A stretch of 64,000 nucleotides of DNA, taken from contig JAAWDG010000014.1 of the NCBI GenBank assembly GCA_022793655.1, positions 98,636-162,635 of the forward strand, in the 5' to 3' direction. The notes under the pieces were generated by a model. That model was not told the origin of the DNA. It made no database searches and was given only the letters and a program-made list of their open reading frames with translations. Shown one piece after another: positions 242 through 55,087 of this stretch (positions are counted from its first letter, which is position 1; each line of letters starts with the position of its first letter). Made by a program: the position numbers and the translations under genes. This DNA is from Clostridiales bacterium (GTDB lineage Bacteria > Bacillota > Clostridia > Oscillospirales > CAG-272).

Positions 242-329
242 TATAATACAAGAAAGCTTACAGCTATCTTGAAAAGTTTACCGTTTTTTGTTAAGCAAAA
301 TTCCGGCAGGGACAGAATCGTTAAACTTT
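242..329 (+). promoter_or_regulatory. TATAAT plus structured leader element (copy F of a dispersed family)
   Basis: TATAAT 242-247, hairpin 249-271 (CAAGAaAGC/GCTaTCTTG), AAAGTTTA (from 273) pairing with TTAAACTTT (321-329), with an internal ATTCCGG..CAGAA segment shared with the copies near 51.1 and 52.9 kb. Confidence 0.6.
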
Positions 330-3230: not shown

Positions 3231-3358
3231 AATGTAAAGTGACATAATTGTCATTTGCCTGTCATGTGAAAGTCACCTGGGCGTGATATAATAAAAGCAA
3301 GTTAAAAGCTTGCTTTTATTTTTTGCATAGAGAGATCAGGGAGGAATCAAGCGTGGAA

Positions 3359-4036: not shown

Positions 4037-6717
4037 ATGTGCTTAGCAAAGTGACCCTTAGCACCATGAAAAAGAATCGCACCCGCACCGTCGTGACGAT
4101 TATTGGTGTGATCATTTCAGCGGCTATGTTTACCGCGATTCTTTCTCTTTGCACTAGTATTCTATTTTTCATGGAGAGAAGTTATATCTATAAATGCGGC
4201 GATTACCATTTTTCGGCTTTGCAGACAGAGGGTGCGTTTGCCGAAAAGCTAATGGCCGATAAACGGGTGGCCTCGGCCGGTTCGCTGCGTTATATTGGCT
4301 ATGCCAAGTCAGAAAGCCAAAATGAGAGCAAGCCGTATGTGTATGTTTCGGCTTATGATCAGGCTTTTATTGATTCCATGCCGGTGCACCTGACCGAAGG
4401 CTCGCTGCCGGCGAATGATACGGAAATTTTGGTGCCGGCGCACTTGGCGATAAACGGCAAGGTGCATTATCAGATTGGCGACACCCTTGAACTTGCTTTA
4501 GGCGATCGTACCTGGGCGGAGGGCCGGTTTTATCAAAAGACTCCTTATGGTGAGGAAGAAGAAACCTTTGTGCCGCGTGAAACGGTGCGCTATACCGTTT
4601 GCGGCTTCTATGAGCGTCCTGATTTTGAGAGCTATTATGCGCCGGGCTATACCCTGCTGACAAAACAAGAGAGCACGAAAGAGGATACAGGCGTTTATGA
4701 TTTGTATTTTCATATGAAAAATCCCAAAAAAGATATGGATGCCTTTATCTCCGAGTATGGTCTTGAGCAAGTGGATTTTAACTGGAATCGGCTCATGTTT
4801 TACGGCATGTCCCTTTATGCCAATTTTGGCAGCGTGATCTATGGCTTGGCCGGCATCTTTATCTTTTTAATCTTATTAGGTTCGGTTTCCATGATTTACA
4901 GCGCGTTCTCGATCTCCATCGGAGAGAGAACCAAGCAGTTTGGCCTGTTATCGTCGGTGGGCGCTACCAAAAAGCAGATTCGCAAAATGGTTCGTTTTGA
5001 AGCGCTCACAGTCAGTGCCGCCGGGATTCCGGCCGGTGTGCTGGTCGGCATTTTTGGCATGGGGGTCACTCTTCATTTTGTTGGCGATAAGTTCCGGCAT
5101 TTAATGGCCTCGCCGTTTCGGGTATCGCTGCATCTTTCGCCGGTTGTTTTGGCGATCGGGGCGGCCATTGCGTTTGTCACGGTGATGATTTCGGTTTTCA
5201 TTCCGGCAAAAAGGGCGTCGTCGGTCAGCGCGATTGAAGCCATTCGGCAAAATCAGGACATTGCGAAAAAAGGCCGCCCTGTCAAAACATCCCGATTGGT
5301 TTATAAAATGTTTGGGTTAGAGGGCCTCTTGGCGAAAAAATATTTTAAACGGGCCAGACGCAAATACAGAACAACGGTCGTATCCCTTGTGATGAGCGTG
5401 GTTTTGTTTATTTCTTCCAGCGTGTTCTGTATGTATTTGAGAGAGTCAGTGCAGGTGGGCTTATATACCGCCAATTATGACGTGGGCTATATGGGCCTTG
5501 ATACCGACACCGATATCGACGGCTTGGTTTCCACGCTTGCTGTGCAGCCGGGTGTGCAGGCGGTGGCCTGCAGCACGATGGATCAGCGAGAAGCAAGTTT
5601 CGACGAATCGACGTTAGACCCTTCCTATAAACAATATTTTGAAGATGTAGAAGGGAGCGGCAGAGAACTCTCCCAGGACGCCATCTTCTATTATTTGGAT
5701 AAACAATCATACGAGGCATTGATTCGGAACAATGGGTTGGATGAAAAAACCTATCTTAGTACCGAAAATCCACCGGCTGTGTTACTAAACCGGAGCAGCT
5801 TTACGGCCGAGTACTATATTGATGGCAAGCTTCGCCGCATGAGTTATGACCTTAAATTCATGAAAGATGGTGTAAGTGAGCTTCGTGTTGTCAAACCGGC
5901 TGCCCCGCGCGAAGGGTATTATAGCATGCTGCATACCGAGCAAACAAACGCCGGCAGAGAAACGGTCTATTATTATATCAAAAACGAGGAAAGGCCCGTA
6001 TTTGATGAAAATAATGTCGTGCAAAATGGCATTCGAGTGCCGGCCGAGTATGAGAGCGTTTCGCTTGGCGACCGCATCGAAACCGCACCGCTTGGTATTC
6101 CGAATGTATCTAATCGGCCGGTGCTTATCTATCCCTATAGCGCGTGGAACAGTCAGGAGCTTCCCATTGGCCAGATTTATCTGAAAACCAGCGACTATCC
6201 CGTGATGATGGATAGCATAAAGAGTGCCTTAAAACAGCAGGGATTTTCCGATTCTGAGGGCAGCTTTGATGACCGCATTGCCGATGACAAAGAAAATAAA
6301 GACCTGATTACGCTGATTAACGTATTAGCTTACGGTTTTATTATTCTGATTTCACTCATGGCCGCCGCCAATGTGTTTAATACGGTTTCTACGAATATTG
6401 CTCTGCGCCGGCGTGATTTTGCCATGATTCGTTCGGTGGGCCTTACCGGCCGCGGCTTGCATCGCATGATGAATTATGAGTGCATTTTGTATGGTACGCG
6501 CGCCTTATTCTTTGGCTTGCCTTTGTCGGTGCTTATGTCGTATTTAACCTATCGTGTGGTGAGACAAGGCGCTTATTTGATTTTCCGCATTCCAGCCTCG
6601 GCCGTTGTCATTGCGGTGTGCAGTGTGTTTGCCGTTGTCTTTGCCACCATGCTGTATGCGATGCAGAAAATCAAGAAAGACAATCTAATGGACGCGCTAA
6701 AGAACGAGAACTTGTAA
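4033..6717 (+). CDS. FtsX-like ABC transporter permease (MacB/FtsX type, 894 aa)
   Basis: 4-nt overlap with the ATPase; two FtsX modules, each with the GATKKQIRKM / GLTGRGLHRM cytoplasmic loop. Confidence 0.88.
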   Translation: MNVLSKVTLSTMKKNRTRTVVTIIGVIISAAMFTAILSLCTSILFFMERSYIYKCGDYHFSALQTEGAFAEKLMADKRVASAGSLRYIGYAKSESQNESKPYVYVSAYDQAFIDSMPVHLTEGSLPANDTEILVPAHLAINGKVHYQIGDTLELALGDRTWAEGRFYQKTPYGEEEETFVPRETVRYTVCGFYERPDFESYYAPGYTLLTKQESTKEDTGVYDLYFHMKNPKKDMDAFISEYGLEQVDFNWNRLMFYGMSLYANFGSVIYGLAGIFIFLILLGSVSMIYSAFSISIGERTKQFGLLSSVGATKKQIRKMVRFEALTVSAAGIPAGVLVGIFGMGVTLHFVGDKFRHLMASPFRVSLHLSPVVLAIGAAIAFVTVMISVFIPAKRASSVSAIEAIRQNQDIAKKGRPVKTSRLVYKMFGLEGLLAKKYFKRARRKYRTTVVSLVMSVVLFISSSVFCMYLRESVQVGLYTANYDVGYMGLDTDTDIDGLVSTLAVQPGVQAVACSTMDQREASFDESTLDPSYKQYFEDVEGSGRELSQDAIFYYLDKQSYEALIRNNGLDEKTYLSTENPPAVLLNRSSFTAEYYIDGKLRRMSYDLKFMKDGVSELRVVKPAAPREGYYSMLHTEQTNAGRETVYYYIKNEERPVFDENNVVQNGIRVPAEYESVSLGDRIETAPLGIPNVSNRPVLIYPYSAWNSQELPIGQIYLKTSDYPVMMDSIKSALKQQGFSDSEGSFDDRIADDKENKDLITLINVLAYGFIILISLMAAANVFNTVSTNIALRRRDFAMIRSVGLTGRGLHRMMNYECILYGTRALFFGLPLSVLMSYLTYRVVRQGAYLIFRIPASAVVIAVCSVFAVVFATMLYAMQKIKKDNLMDALKNENL

Positions 6718-8556: not shown

Positions 8557-8610
8557 TTGACATCCGTATCGCTGTATGGTAAAATGAAGCAAATCAAAGA
8601 TTTACTTTGC
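8557..8610 (+). promoter_or_regulatory. Promoter followed directly by a leader hairpin, upstream of murQ (partial copy D)
   Basis: TTGACA 8557-8562, 17-nt spacer, TAAAAT 8580-8585, then AAGcAAATC-aaa-GATTTaCTT. Confidence 0.55.
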
Positions 8611-21087: not shown

Positions 21088-21786
21088 TTATTCAATTTCT
21101 CTAAGGGCTGCTGTCGGAATATAGCGGGCAGCAATCTGGCGAAATTTTTCCAAATCTTCTTTGGCATACGCAGAAAGTCCCTTGCAGAGCGTGTCGCCCG
21201 AATCGACAAAAGATTGCAAAAAATATTGTTTAGCGCCTTGCAGCCACCGGCCAATATCGTGAAAATCTTGTTCGTCATGAAGTTCTTTCACCACAGTGGT
21301 GCGAAATTCATAAGGAAAATTTCCGTTTATAAGAAATTTTGCGCTTTTTTCCACTTCCTCGATGTTAAAATGGGGTAGACCTACGGTAAGCGGATATTTG
21401 GCAGGCGCATTTTTGATGTCCATGGCCACATAGTCGATTAACTGACGTTCGATGAGCGAAACAAGCATGTCATATTGCTGTCCATTGGTGTCAAGCTTAA
21501 TGCTGAAACCGAGTTCTTTGATGGCAGAGAGAAAGGGGACAAGTTCTTCTTCTTTTTGCAAAAGCGGCTCGCCGCCGGTGATACAAACACCGTCTAACAA
21601 TCCCTTTCTTGTTTGTAAGAAACTTAGCACTTGCGCGTCGGAAATGCCATCGTGGTCGATATGTGTGACAAGTGAGGCGTTGTGGCAAAATGGACAACGG
21701 AAGTTACAGCCGGCTAAAAAAAGAGTCGCGGCAATTTTGCCGGGATAATCAATCAGTGTTAATTTTTGCATTCCATGAATTTTCAT
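21088..21786 (-). CDS. nrdG: Anaerobic RNR activating protein (radical SAM)
   Basis: LTLIDYPGKIAATLFLAGCNFRCPFCHNA (CxxxCxxC), CITGGEPLL. Confidence 0.9.
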   Translation of the reverse strand: MKIHGMQKLTLIDYPGKIAATLFLAGCNFRCPFCHNASLVTHIDHDGISDAQVLSFLQTRKGLLDGVCITGGEPLLQKEEELVPFLSAIKELGFSIKLDTNGQQYDMLVSLIERQLIDYVAMDIKNAPAKYPLTVGLPHFNIEEVEKSAKFLINGNFPYEFRTTVVKELHDEQDFHDIGRWLQGAKQYFLQSFVDSGDTLCKGLSAYAKEDLEKFRQIAARYIPTAALREIE

Positions 21787-21961
21787 AAGTAAGTGGCGCC
21801 TTTCAAAGGAAAAGAATAGATGGCAGCAAATCTATGATTTGCTGCTAATATCATATCATATGTTTAGGTGGAATGCAAATTAAAAAGTCAGGTCAAAATA
21901 AGTGAAAGTAAGCGATACATGCAATAAAAATATATTTTTCTATATAATAATTGAAAGGAAA

Positions 21962-36834: not shown

Positions 36835-37094
36835 AAAAAAATCCCTGAGGCTTGATAGCCTCAGGGACGAATCAATCGCGGTACCACCCTGATTACTGCA
36901 AGTATGCAGTCACTCTTTGGATTCAATCAAATCCATAGCCATGATAACGGGGCATCCGTAACCCTCTACTGCGCTTTCAAGGGTTATGCTCAGAAGTGAG
37001 AGCGCTTTACAATCAAACCACCGATTCTCACCTGCCATCGGCTCTCTTTCGATTTGCGGCTGCAAAGCTTAGCTTCTTCAATGCATTTCAATTT
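36835..37094 (-). promoter_or_regulatory. T-box leader, predicted Leu (CUC specifier)
   Basis: Minus strand: T-box sequence AGGGTGGTACCGCG, terminator TCCCTGAGGctatcaaGCCTCAGGGATTTTTTT, stem I AGAAG..GCTTT/AAAGC..CTTCT with internal loop gctCTCa. Confidence 0.9.
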
Positions 37095-45280: not shown

Positions 45281-45390
45281 TTGAAAATGAATGGGACGGA
45301 TGGTATAATAGAAACAAATCAGAGATTTGTTTCTAAAGTTTATTTTGTCACCTATAGGTCGTACTGCAAGCGTATAAAGGTTTAAAGGCC
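45281..45390 (+). promoter_or_regulatory. Promoter plus leader element (copy A) upstream of the flavodiiron gene
   Basis: TTGAAA 45281-45286, 17 nt, TATAAT 45304-45309, then AGAAACAAATC-aga-GATTTGTTTCT (11-bp perfect stem, 45310-45334), AAAGTTTATTTTG and ACCTATAGGT. Confidence 0.6.
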
Positions 45391-45441
45391 AAAAAATAAA
45401 TTGATGCGTTTTATAAAGGAAACAGAAGGGAGAGGATTATT

Positions 45442-51076: not shown

Positions 51077-51194
51077 ATTATACCACAAAGTTTCCGTTGC
51101 CTGAAAGTTTGTCGGTTCTGGCTCGGCCGGAATATCACCCCTTTCGGGTGACAAGATAAACTTTGGGAACAAATCTCCGATTTGTTCCATTATA
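51077..51194 (-). promoter_or_regulatory. Promoter plus structured leader element (copy B) upstream of gpmI
   Basis: Minus strand TATAAT (51189-51194), stem GAACAAATC/GATTTGTTC (51167-51187), AAAGTTTATC (51155-51164) with GACAAACTTT (51104-51113), inner hairpins 51135-51151 and 51116-51132, second TATAAT at 51077-51082. Confidence 0.65.
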
Positions 51195-52819: not shown

Positions 52820-52905
52820 CAGAGCGTTTTTAAAAAGAATGTGTATGAAATATAAACAGATAGCATGAAAAAAATTAGATATTACAATTGCTTACAATCG
52901 TTGGC

Positions 52906-53020
52906 TATGGTACAATAAGAACAAGCCGCATGGCTTGTTCTTAAAAAGTTCATCTTGCAGCCTATCAGGCAGCATTCCAGCGGAGCTGGAAACGATGAAC
53001 TTTGAGGTAGCTGTAAACTT
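52906..53020 (+). promoter_or_regulatory. Promoter plus structured leader element, tandem unit 1 (copy C1)
   Basis: TACAAT 52911-52916; AAGAACAAGCC-gcat-GGCTTGTTCTT (52917-52942); AAAGTTCATC (52945-52954) perfectly pairing GATGAACTTT (52994-53003); inner hairpins GCCTatcAGGC and TTCCAGC-gga-GCTGGAA. Confidence 0.7.
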
Positions 53021-53110
53021 TATGGTACAATAAAAGCAAGCCGCATGGCTTGTTCTTAGAAAGTTTATCTTGCAGTCTATCGGGCTGCATTCCGGCAAGG
53101 CTGAATGTTG
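53021..53110 (+). promoter_or_regulatory. Promoter plus leader element, tandem unit 2 (copy C2)
   Basis: TATGGTACAAT repeated 115 bp after unit 1; AAGCAAGCC-gcat-GGCTTGTTC; AAAGTTTATCTTGCAG; ATTCCGGCaagGCTGAAT. Confidence 0.65.
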
Positions 53111-53173
53111 GATTTTGAGACAGAGAAAGATTTATAACAAAATATGAAAAAGTGTTTAGGAGGTAAGCACCAA

Positions 53174-55087
53174 ATGATATTAACAATCGCAAATGGCGGG
53201 CGTCCCGCGATTGCAAAAGAAGATGGAACGATTCTTTTCCACTCGATTTACATGGGCAACCGGTATTGGGGCGACATGTATAATGTGTTAAAGGACTATA
53301 ACGGAAAAACGTGGAGCATCCGCGAATGCACGCTAAAGGAAATAGCAGAGGATGGTAAGGATTTTTCGATTCTGCATCAGCCCCGCTGCTTTATCGCCGA
53401 GTGTGAAAATGGACGTTTGCTTGCTGCTTTAGATGATCATAACGCTTTGCTTAAAACCGAGGTGAAAAATGAAGGCAATATCGGTGGCGCCGGAGCGGAT
53501 AAGGAGCCTTTGCATGTAATTGCTCTTGGTGGTATGCATGCCGAGCGGCTGGACCGGGCTATGTATAATGGGTTTACCACCTATAACGGCCTGAATCAGT
53601 TAGATATGAACGCAAGAGTTGATATCAAAATTTTTGCTGAAAATGAATATTGTGAAAGTGCCGTACATATGCCTTTGATTGATAAGGCTGGCAAGGCTTA
53701 TCATTTCGGCTTTGTTTCGTTTGAACAATATTTCACGAGCATATTTGCCTGTGAAGGCGGCACGATGGAATATCGTCTTTTCATGGACGGCCGCAATATT
53801 AAACCGGATAGCACCATTGTTTCGGACTGGATGTTGTTTACGCCGATGGCGGATACCGTCAGCGAACTTCCTGACTATACGCGGTTTATACGTGATTTTA
53901 ATCAATTCCAGAAACCCAAGCGTGAGATTCCGGTTGGCTTTAGTTCTTGGTACTATTACATGGGCAATATCAATGAACGCATGGTTTATGAAAACTTAGA
54001 GGCGATTGATAAAATCAAAGACCGGGTGCCGTTCAAGGTTTTCCAGATTGACGCAGGTTGGGCCGATGGTAATCATCAGGGCGAACCGCATGCCGATCGC
54101 TTCCCGAAGGGCATGAAATTCTATGCCGATCTGATTCGTGAACATGGCCTGATACCGGGTATTTGGCTTAATCCTTTCCGTTTTGATCCGGGCGACGCGG
54201 TTTTAGAGGAGCATCCTGATTGGTTTGTGAAAAACGACGCTGGTGAAGATATGACGCATGAGGGCTGTCATATGCTGGATGTGACCCATCCGGAAGCGAA
54301 GCAGTATGTACGTGATTTGTATCATAAATTGACCTATGATTGGGGTTATCGATATTTAAAAATTGATATGGTGAGTGATTTTATCGCTGCCGGACATCAT
54401 CATGATCCTTCGGCAGGCGCGCTTCAAAATCTGCGTGAATATTTCCGGTTAGTCAGAGAGTCCTGCCATCCGGATACCTATATTTTATCCTGCACCTGCC
54501 CGATGTTTGAGGTTTCTGAATTTGTGGACGGCAGCCGTATCTCGGTTGATATTTTTGAGCGCTGGGAATCACTTGTCAAAATGTTCAACCGGGTGCTCAA
54601 ACGGTATTATATGAACGAGAATTTGTATATTGCCGACCCTGATTGTCTCATGATCCGCAAAAAGGAGAATGAAGATGACGACTGCCGGCGGTATTGCTCG
54701 CGTAATGATGATGAAATCCGCACTTTCCTCACCGCTATGTATGCAACTGGCGGCGCGCTGCTTATATCAGATAAGCTGCCGCTGATGAGTGAAGAACAGA
54801 TCGGCTTATATGAAAAGCTGTTCCCGCTGCCTGGCCGTACTGCCAAGCCGCTTGATTTGATGGAATCTTATATCCCGGGTCTCTTGGATCTCGGCTATAA
54901 AGACGATATTCGCACCATCGCCTTCATCAACTGGGGGGAAAGAGAACGTACTTATACTGTTGAGATTGAGGGCGCTCATGAGGCAACCGAACATTGGACA
55001 GACGAGAATTTGGGCGAGGTAAGCGGCGCTTATACCGTAACGCTGAAACCGCACTGCTCTACACTGATTCATTTCAAAAAGAAATGA
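53174..55087 (+). CDS. Glycoside hydrolase family 36 (alpha-galactosidase-like)
   Basis: PVGFSSWYYYMGNI, FQIDAGWADGNHQGEP, GLIPGIWLNPF, YRYLKIDMVSDF; SD aggaggt. Confidence 0.9.
   Translation: MILTIANGGRPAIAKEDGTILFHSIYMGNRYWGDMYNVLKDYNGKTWSIRECTLKEIAEDGKDFSILHQPRCFIAECENGRLLAALDDHNALLKTEVKNEGNIGGAGADKEPLHVIALGGMHAERLDRAMYNGFTTYNGLNQLDMNARVDIKIFAENEYCESAVHMPLIDKAGKAYHFGFVSFEQYFTSIFACEGGTMEYRLFMDGRNIKPDSTIVSDWMLFTPMADTVSELPDYTRFIRDFNQFQKPKREIPVGFSSWYYYMGNINERMVYENLEAIDKIKDRVPFKVFQIDAGWADGNHQGEPHADRFPKGMKFYADLIREHGLIPGIWLNPFRFDPGDAVLEEHPDWFVKNDAGEDMTHEGCHMLDVTHPEAKQYVRDLYHKLTYDWGYRYLKIDMVSDFIAAGHHHDPSAGALQNLREYFRLVRESCHPDTYILSCTCPMFEVSEFVDGSRISVDIFERWESLVKMFNRVLKRYYMNENLYIADPDCLMIRKKENEDDDCRRYCSRNDDEIRTFLTAMYATGGALLISDKLPLMSEEQIGLYEKLFPLPGRTAKPLDLMESYIPGLLDLGYKDDIRTIAFINWGERERTYTVEIEGAHEATEHWTDENLGEVSGAYTVTLKPHCSTLIHFKKK

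Follow-up and report, generated by a model that had tools for sequence, protein, structure and literature searches.

The BOX repeats of Streptococcus pneumoniae are modular intergenic stem-loop arrays, with about 125 per genome, which are distributed patchily across related species and have been read as parasitic (PMC3049150). Like the RUP and SPRITE repeats, they are enriched between convergent genes (PMC3049150). RUP of S. pneumoniae is 107 bp in length and is present in 108 copies at intergenic, TA-containing target sites (PMC2229807). The Correia (NEMIS) elements of Neisseria are small mobile repeats of 107–155 bp that lie ahead of genes and contain promoters and RNA hairpins (PMC2229807, PMC10969869). 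The repeat described here was found in a window, a stretch of 64,000 nucleotides, of a Clostridiales bacterium. It is likely that this repeat represents a family of small mobile, array-forming intergenic repeats of the BOX/Correia kind, which are oriented with transcription and lie behind host -10 boxes. The family is novel in its junction core, in having no terminal inverted repeats that could be recognised, and in its insertion behind -10 boxes.

Each unit consists of a 12-bp hairpin (stem1) followed by a 10-bp helix (P1), which encloses the helices P2 and P3 in the form of a three-way junction. A single T separates P1 from P2, P2 and P3 are separated by 0 nt, and 2 nt, mostly AC or CC, precede the 3′ arm of P1. 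The repeat length of about 105–115 bp is made up of stem1, the junction palindrome (P1-T-P2-P3-2 nt-P1′), and a spacer of about 20 nt. The features of the window are collected in Table 1.

Table 1. Repeat units and neighbouring features in the 64-kb window.
Feature	Position	Strand	Evidence or remark
GH36 host promoter: TTGCTT 52888-52893, 17 bp, TACAAT 52911-52916, TG 52908-52909	52888-52916	+	sequence
GH36 unit 1, stem1: TAAGAACAAGCC-GCAT-GGCTTGTTCTTA	52916-52943	+	sequence, R1, folding
GH36 unit 1, three-way junction	52945-53003	+	R1, folding, covariation
GH36 unit 1, P1	52945-52954/52994-53003		
GH36 unit 1, P2	52956-52963/52967-52974		
GH36 unit 1, P3	52975-52981/52985-52991		
GH36 spacer with second -10 box TACAAT 53026-53031	53004-53031	+	sequence
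GH36 array, unit 2; decay in P3 and P1 3′ arm	53031-53116	+	R1, 56.3 bits
Gene downstream of GH36 array: melibiase-like, Pfam PF02065	53144-55087	+	
Unit upstream of phosphoglycerate mutase gene (gpmI)	51104-51190	-	R1, 59.6 bits
TATAAT 243-248 and unit 249-329; ABC transporter gene downstream	243-329	+	R1, 35.9 bits
TATAAT, intact stem1 (45309-45335), decayed three-way junction; flavodiiron gene downstream	45304-45404	+	
TAAAAT and solo stem1 (8586-8608) ahead of murQ	8580-8608	+	sister species: two-unit array at same spot
TATAAT and solo hairpin	3287-3318	+	sister species: unit at same spot

The array that served as the starting point lies upstream of a melibiase-like (GH36) gene, the start of which is probably at 53174, behind AGGAGG. 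The 115-bp direct repeat comprises 52906-52988 and 53021-53103, with an identity of 87%, and TATGGTACAATA in the spacer is identical to 52906-52917. RNA folding of 52916-53003 gave the stem and the three-way junction exactly as described, with an MFE of -44.3 kcal/mol (z = -8.5). A first-pass annotation had read this site as a tandem pair and had named four further copies, and all the pieces it listed were located where it had put them by sequence, the covariance model R1 (see below), and folding. Both units of the pair are present, the second in the decayed state given in Table 1. The copies at gpmI and at 249-329 agree with the first description, that at 45309-45404 is decayed (R1 score of 20.9 bits), and that at 8586-8608 is stem1 alone. 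The solo hairpin at 3287-3318 is possibly a terminator. On the minus strand at about 21820-21850, a -10-like box precedes a single isolated palindrome, GCAGCAAATC-ATA-GATTTGCTGC, which lies upstream of an ORF at 21088-21786 (minus strand) and is probably a solo stem1.

When the GH36 pair was used as a DNA query, 49 matches were obtained in the genome. Alignment A1 contains 25 complete units of this genome, and R1 was built from 25 genomic copies; unit 1 of the GH36 array (52916-53003, 97.6 bits) is a seed of the model, whereas the other four window copies are not. R1 gave 142 raw matches in the 1.84-Mb genome, partly antisense echoes of the palindromes. After removal of these echoes, 105 units remained, forming 73 arrays with one to three members each, which bears out the dispersed recurrence proposed in the first-pass annotation; all genomes compared are draft assemblies, and since many contigs end or begin inside arrays, the repeats break short-read assemblies and these copy numbers are minimum values. 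Such contig ends were noted in this genome (G000; C11, C23, and C24) and in the sister species G001 (C2, C17, C26, C38, C45, C61, C66, and C85). The latter, the MAG Clostridiales bacterium isolate ABMPRH_136_2, yielded 110 raw R1 matches, and its DNA identity around the GH36 gene is about 84–86%.

Every helix covaries in A1, as had been claimed from the few window copies: both sides change in 24 of the 37 pairs, and 94.6% of the cells pair. This pairing was matched by none of 500 shuffles, and no slid version came close either. Within subfamilies, the variation is 4.7% at paired positions and 19.2% at unpaired ones, a fourfold difference, and 126 of the 301 paired substitutions are compensated; base pairing is therefore really maintained. 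Together with the location at promoters and the sense bias of 53:5 (see below), this constraint would suit a 5′ leader RNA selected by the host, in which the hairpin and the junction stabilise the 5′ end of the mRNA or regulate the gene and which has spread because it is useful. The type of pairing speaks against such a leader. A selected sense RNA is expected to favour G·U over A·C. Single changes within subfamilies comprise 50 G·U and 63 A·C pairs (p = 0.26), and all robust pairs comprise 110 G·U and 99 A·C, against 37 G·U and 0 A·C in tRNAs from the same stretches of DNA around copies, a figure subject to the caveat that tRNA detection in itself favours paired positions. Since G·U is no commoner than A·C, the pairing looks like DNA palindromy and not like selected sense RNA. 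An apparent A·C excess in the sister species was dismissed, as it is gone in robustly paired columns. In alignment A3, which holds the stem1 copies of the sister species, an A·G mismatch recurs at the same position (columns 6 and 41) in 30 of the 82 copies, as if it were part of the site.

The position of the arrays relative to promoters is well defined. Of 120 first units, 82 begin at a -10 box, compared with 6% of shifted control positions, and 57 have in addition a correctly spaced -35 (less than 1% of controls); these statistics are consensus matches to predicted promoters. Among the 66 internal units, a -10 was found in 28 and a -35 in only five. It had been suggested that the P1 3′ arm supplies a -35-like hexamer to the next unit and so builds tandem promoters. 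The hexamer is present in the GH36 copy, but the low number of internal -35 boxes does not allow a general rule, and the tandem -10 boxes resemble a duplicated target instead. The -35 and -10 ahead of an array appear to be mostly the property of the host gene and not, as first proposed, of the element, being conserved in the sister species without the junction. Stem1 does adjoin the -10, as originally described, but it begins at the -10 end and not at about +1. If the usual distance between -10 and +1 applies, transcription would start within the 5′ arm of a stem1 that begins at the end of the -10, and an mRNA start predicted inside the hairpin is a further argument against a selected leader.

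Between co-directional genes, 53 arrays are in the sense and five in the antisense orientation (p = 3.5e-11), so that the claim of a sense orientation for all copies holds for most of them only; seven arrays lie between convergent genes and 36 between divergent genes, with a few of these contexts possibly wrong, as they come from simple ORF calling. The possibility that stem1 loops are equal in both orientations was ruled out (TTGC in 17 cases, GCAA in one). The downstream genes are unrelated and include those of formate-THF ligase, SAM synthetase, fumarase, esterase, aldehyde dehydrogenase, and others. In about 18 of the 124 arrays, no more than 12 nt separate the array start from a stop codon upstream. 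At L148 (about 4200-4640), a unit lies about 10 nt behind the stop codon of a gene reading as collagen-like Gly-X-Thr repeats, and the sister species has no unit there.

When orthologous sites are compared, the host promoter can be aligned in both species up to the -10, and the array begins there. At the GH36 site of the sister species (L061), the promoter is at the same place, and there is no full unit. Both species have arrays with different units at L110/L088, L125/L083, L116/L103, and L150/L099. Only the promoter and a hairpin are present in one species at the GH36, gpmI, and murQ sites, and one species is free of any unit at L115/L094 (between two genes, at a stop codon), L132/L086:10363, L086:8797/L132:3262, and window 249/L082; sharing is over-counted in this comparison, since the G001 stretches were picked around its own copies. 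The turnover of copies between the sister species, the unrelated downstream genes, and the lack of wobble preference argue against a cis-regulatory RNA, and the absence of a G·U preference, of related associated genes, and of units at sister orthologues likewise sets the repeat apart from riboswitches. The host-selected leader, which also conflicts with the unrelated genes and with the junction-free promoters of the same genes in the sister species, is in our opinion unlikely. From the options offered in the first-pass annotation, a BOX-like intergenic repeat comes closest, and a cis-regulatory RNA is disfavoured.

Stem1 is locus-specific. Its identity is 0.79 within arrays and 0.63 between them in this genome, and 0.84 and 0.58, respectively, in the sister species. 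The junction shows no locus specificity in this genome, its identity being 0.64 (0.639) within arrays and 0.63 (0.628) between them, and a partial one in the sister species (0.72 and 0.61). The locus-specific stem1 could point to a history without transposition, in which replication slippage, together with gene conversion between copies, lengthens and shortens ancestral promoter–hairpin sites; arrays or hairpins are indeed present in both sister species at several orthologous sites, and BOX arrays are likewise variable in length (PMC3049150). We find this distinctly improbable, because in this genome the junction types of one array are as different from each other as those of separate loci, some orthologous sites, including L115/L094 at the stop codon, are unit-free in one species, and no units are detectable in two congeners. 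Alternatively, stem1 might be an operator that overlaps the start site and is bound by a DNA-binding regulator, the remainder of the unit being incidental. A palindrome fixed in place next to the -10 and DNA-type pairing are what an operator would show; yet stem1 differs widely between loci (mean identity 0.58–0.63) and is alike mainly within arrays, a shared stem1 motif beyond palindromy is largely absent, the junction is conserved too, and the downstream genes are unrelated, all of which makes an operator very improbable.

The similarity of the left and right -10 regions is 9.07 in this genome, against 8.19 when permuted (sd 0.13), and 8.14 against 7.68 (sd 0.19) in the sister species; the likeness beyond permutation is that of single-unit arrays and is of variable length, the excess in multi-unit arrays not being significant. 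Clear examples are L151 (TTTTTACGTTATAATA / TTTTTACGCTATAATA), L110 (GATACGATATAATAAGAACAAGC twice), and gpmI, where TTTGTGGTATAATGGA is common to the -10 boxes on both sides (51194-51189 and 51082-51077). In addition, the first and internal units of one array have several bases upstream of stem1 in common. Judging by these likenesses, a target that includes the -10 box is probably duplicated, and tandem -10 boxes would arise in this way. No target duplication of constant length was found among the arrays compared, and no terminal inverted repeats were recognised, stem1 forming one end and a non-palindromic spacer the other. A long target duplication comprising the -10 and stem1 was rejected, as most arrays lack a terminal hairpin (stem1).

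We propose that a unit would insert just behind a -10 box, duplicating a stretch that includes the -10. The gene would retain a -10 behind the insert, where the next unit could land, and tandem arrays would result; recombination would shrink the arrays and leave solo stem1 hairpins. Palindromy is probably required for mobility at the DNA level, or may be restored by template switching. Any consequence for the mRNA, for instance a folded 5′ leader, would be a by-product, and the repeats may incidentally affect expression. A bolder version would be an element in the form of a single-stranded DNA hairpin, which enters the melted -10 of transcribing promoters with strand and orientation specificity and copies the -10 each time, so building the next target. 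It would occur with unrelated sequences in several bacterial families, and an enzyme or host process not belonging to the transposase families searched would move it; we consider this rather unlikely.

The distribution in relatives is patchy. R1 gave no matches in two other congeners, an absence that depends on this single model, which misses diverged relatives. Of 57 other family and order genomes, all but two likewise lacked R1 matches. An order-wide scan was insensitive, with only 11 candidates scored per genome. G046, from another family of the order, has weak R1 matches, but also its own amplified repeat (49 DNA matches) of the same design and other sequence: TATAAT-AAGAACAGC-AAG-CTGTTCTT, then P1, P2, and P3. 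In G335, from a third family, there are few copies, and one of them lies directly behind a stop codon without a promoter. G035, from the same family as this genome, has a promoter-less 175-bp tandem version. These versions may be either homologous to the repeat of this genome or convergent with it. The promoter-less three-way junction array of G035 occupies L109:194-804 and L108:4839-4925, with a tRNA gene adjoining at L109:42-123. In G046 (L159, L161, L162, L167, and L171), the units are interspersed with another repeat of greater length (AAGCCTTGCATAGCAAGACTTTGTGGCTTTGCC...), which likewise ends in CATGGTATAATA; the -10 box thus seems to be a joint common to different repeats.

Searches of Rfam at the curated threshold gave no match over the window element or in 12 copy-bearing loci from this genome, the sister species, G046, G035, and G335. 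A known Rfam RNA is ruled out by this lack of match, in agreement with the initial statement that no named riboswitch was recognised. Elsewhere in the window, a T-box leader (RF00230, 122 bits) was identified at 36860-37090 on the minus strand. The search for a mobilising enzyme covered four families: Y1, IS630-type DDE, IS256, and reverse transcriptase. REP/RAYT was rejected, since the Y1 transposase is absent from the genus; an IS630-type TA-target element, since there is no DDE_3 in this genome or the sister species; IS256 (Transposase_mut), since it is absent from both and present only in the element-free congener G003; and retro-mobilisation, since neither encodes RVT_1 (reverse transcriptase). 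A phage or plasmid origin was also rejected, as viral contigs contained no exact stem1 and BLAST against phage and plasmid records gave no match. Like MITEs, the repeat is short, non-coding, and of high copy number, with filled and empty orthologous sites; unlike them, it has no recognised terminal inverted repeats. Literature searches in open-access text found no description of this repeat family.

Among small bacterial repeats, it would be unusual for the targeting rule to be settlement directly behind the -10 in a fixed orientation and with apparent duplication of the -10. In each genome, about 70 places would thereby acquire tandem -10 boxes and structured leaders. For RNA discovery, this is a warning that strong covariation without a wobble excess may stem from mobile DNA palindromes, which can be mistaken for a riboswitch.

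BOX of S. pneumoniae is the system most readily compared, being modular, array-forming, intergenic, patchy, folded into stem-loops, and variable in array length (PMC3049150). It is set apart by its description, which gives boxA, boxB, and boxC modules, terminal inverted repeats, and target duplications (PMC3049150), and Rfam found no BOX match at the copies studied here, which have instead a three-way-junction core and a sense-oriented insertion directly behind -10 boxes. RUP resembles the repeats in size, copy number, intergenic location, and TA-containing target sites, but here no terminal inverted repeats were recognised, and there is no IS630-type transposase. REP/BIME sequences with RAYT transposases are also palindromic, extragenic, and arranged in arrays, whereas the genus studied here has no Y1 transposase. 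Correia elements are likewise small and lie upstream of genes; by description they differ in having their own promoters, while in the repeats reported here the -35 and the first -10 are those of the host and the second -10 is seemingly duplicated.
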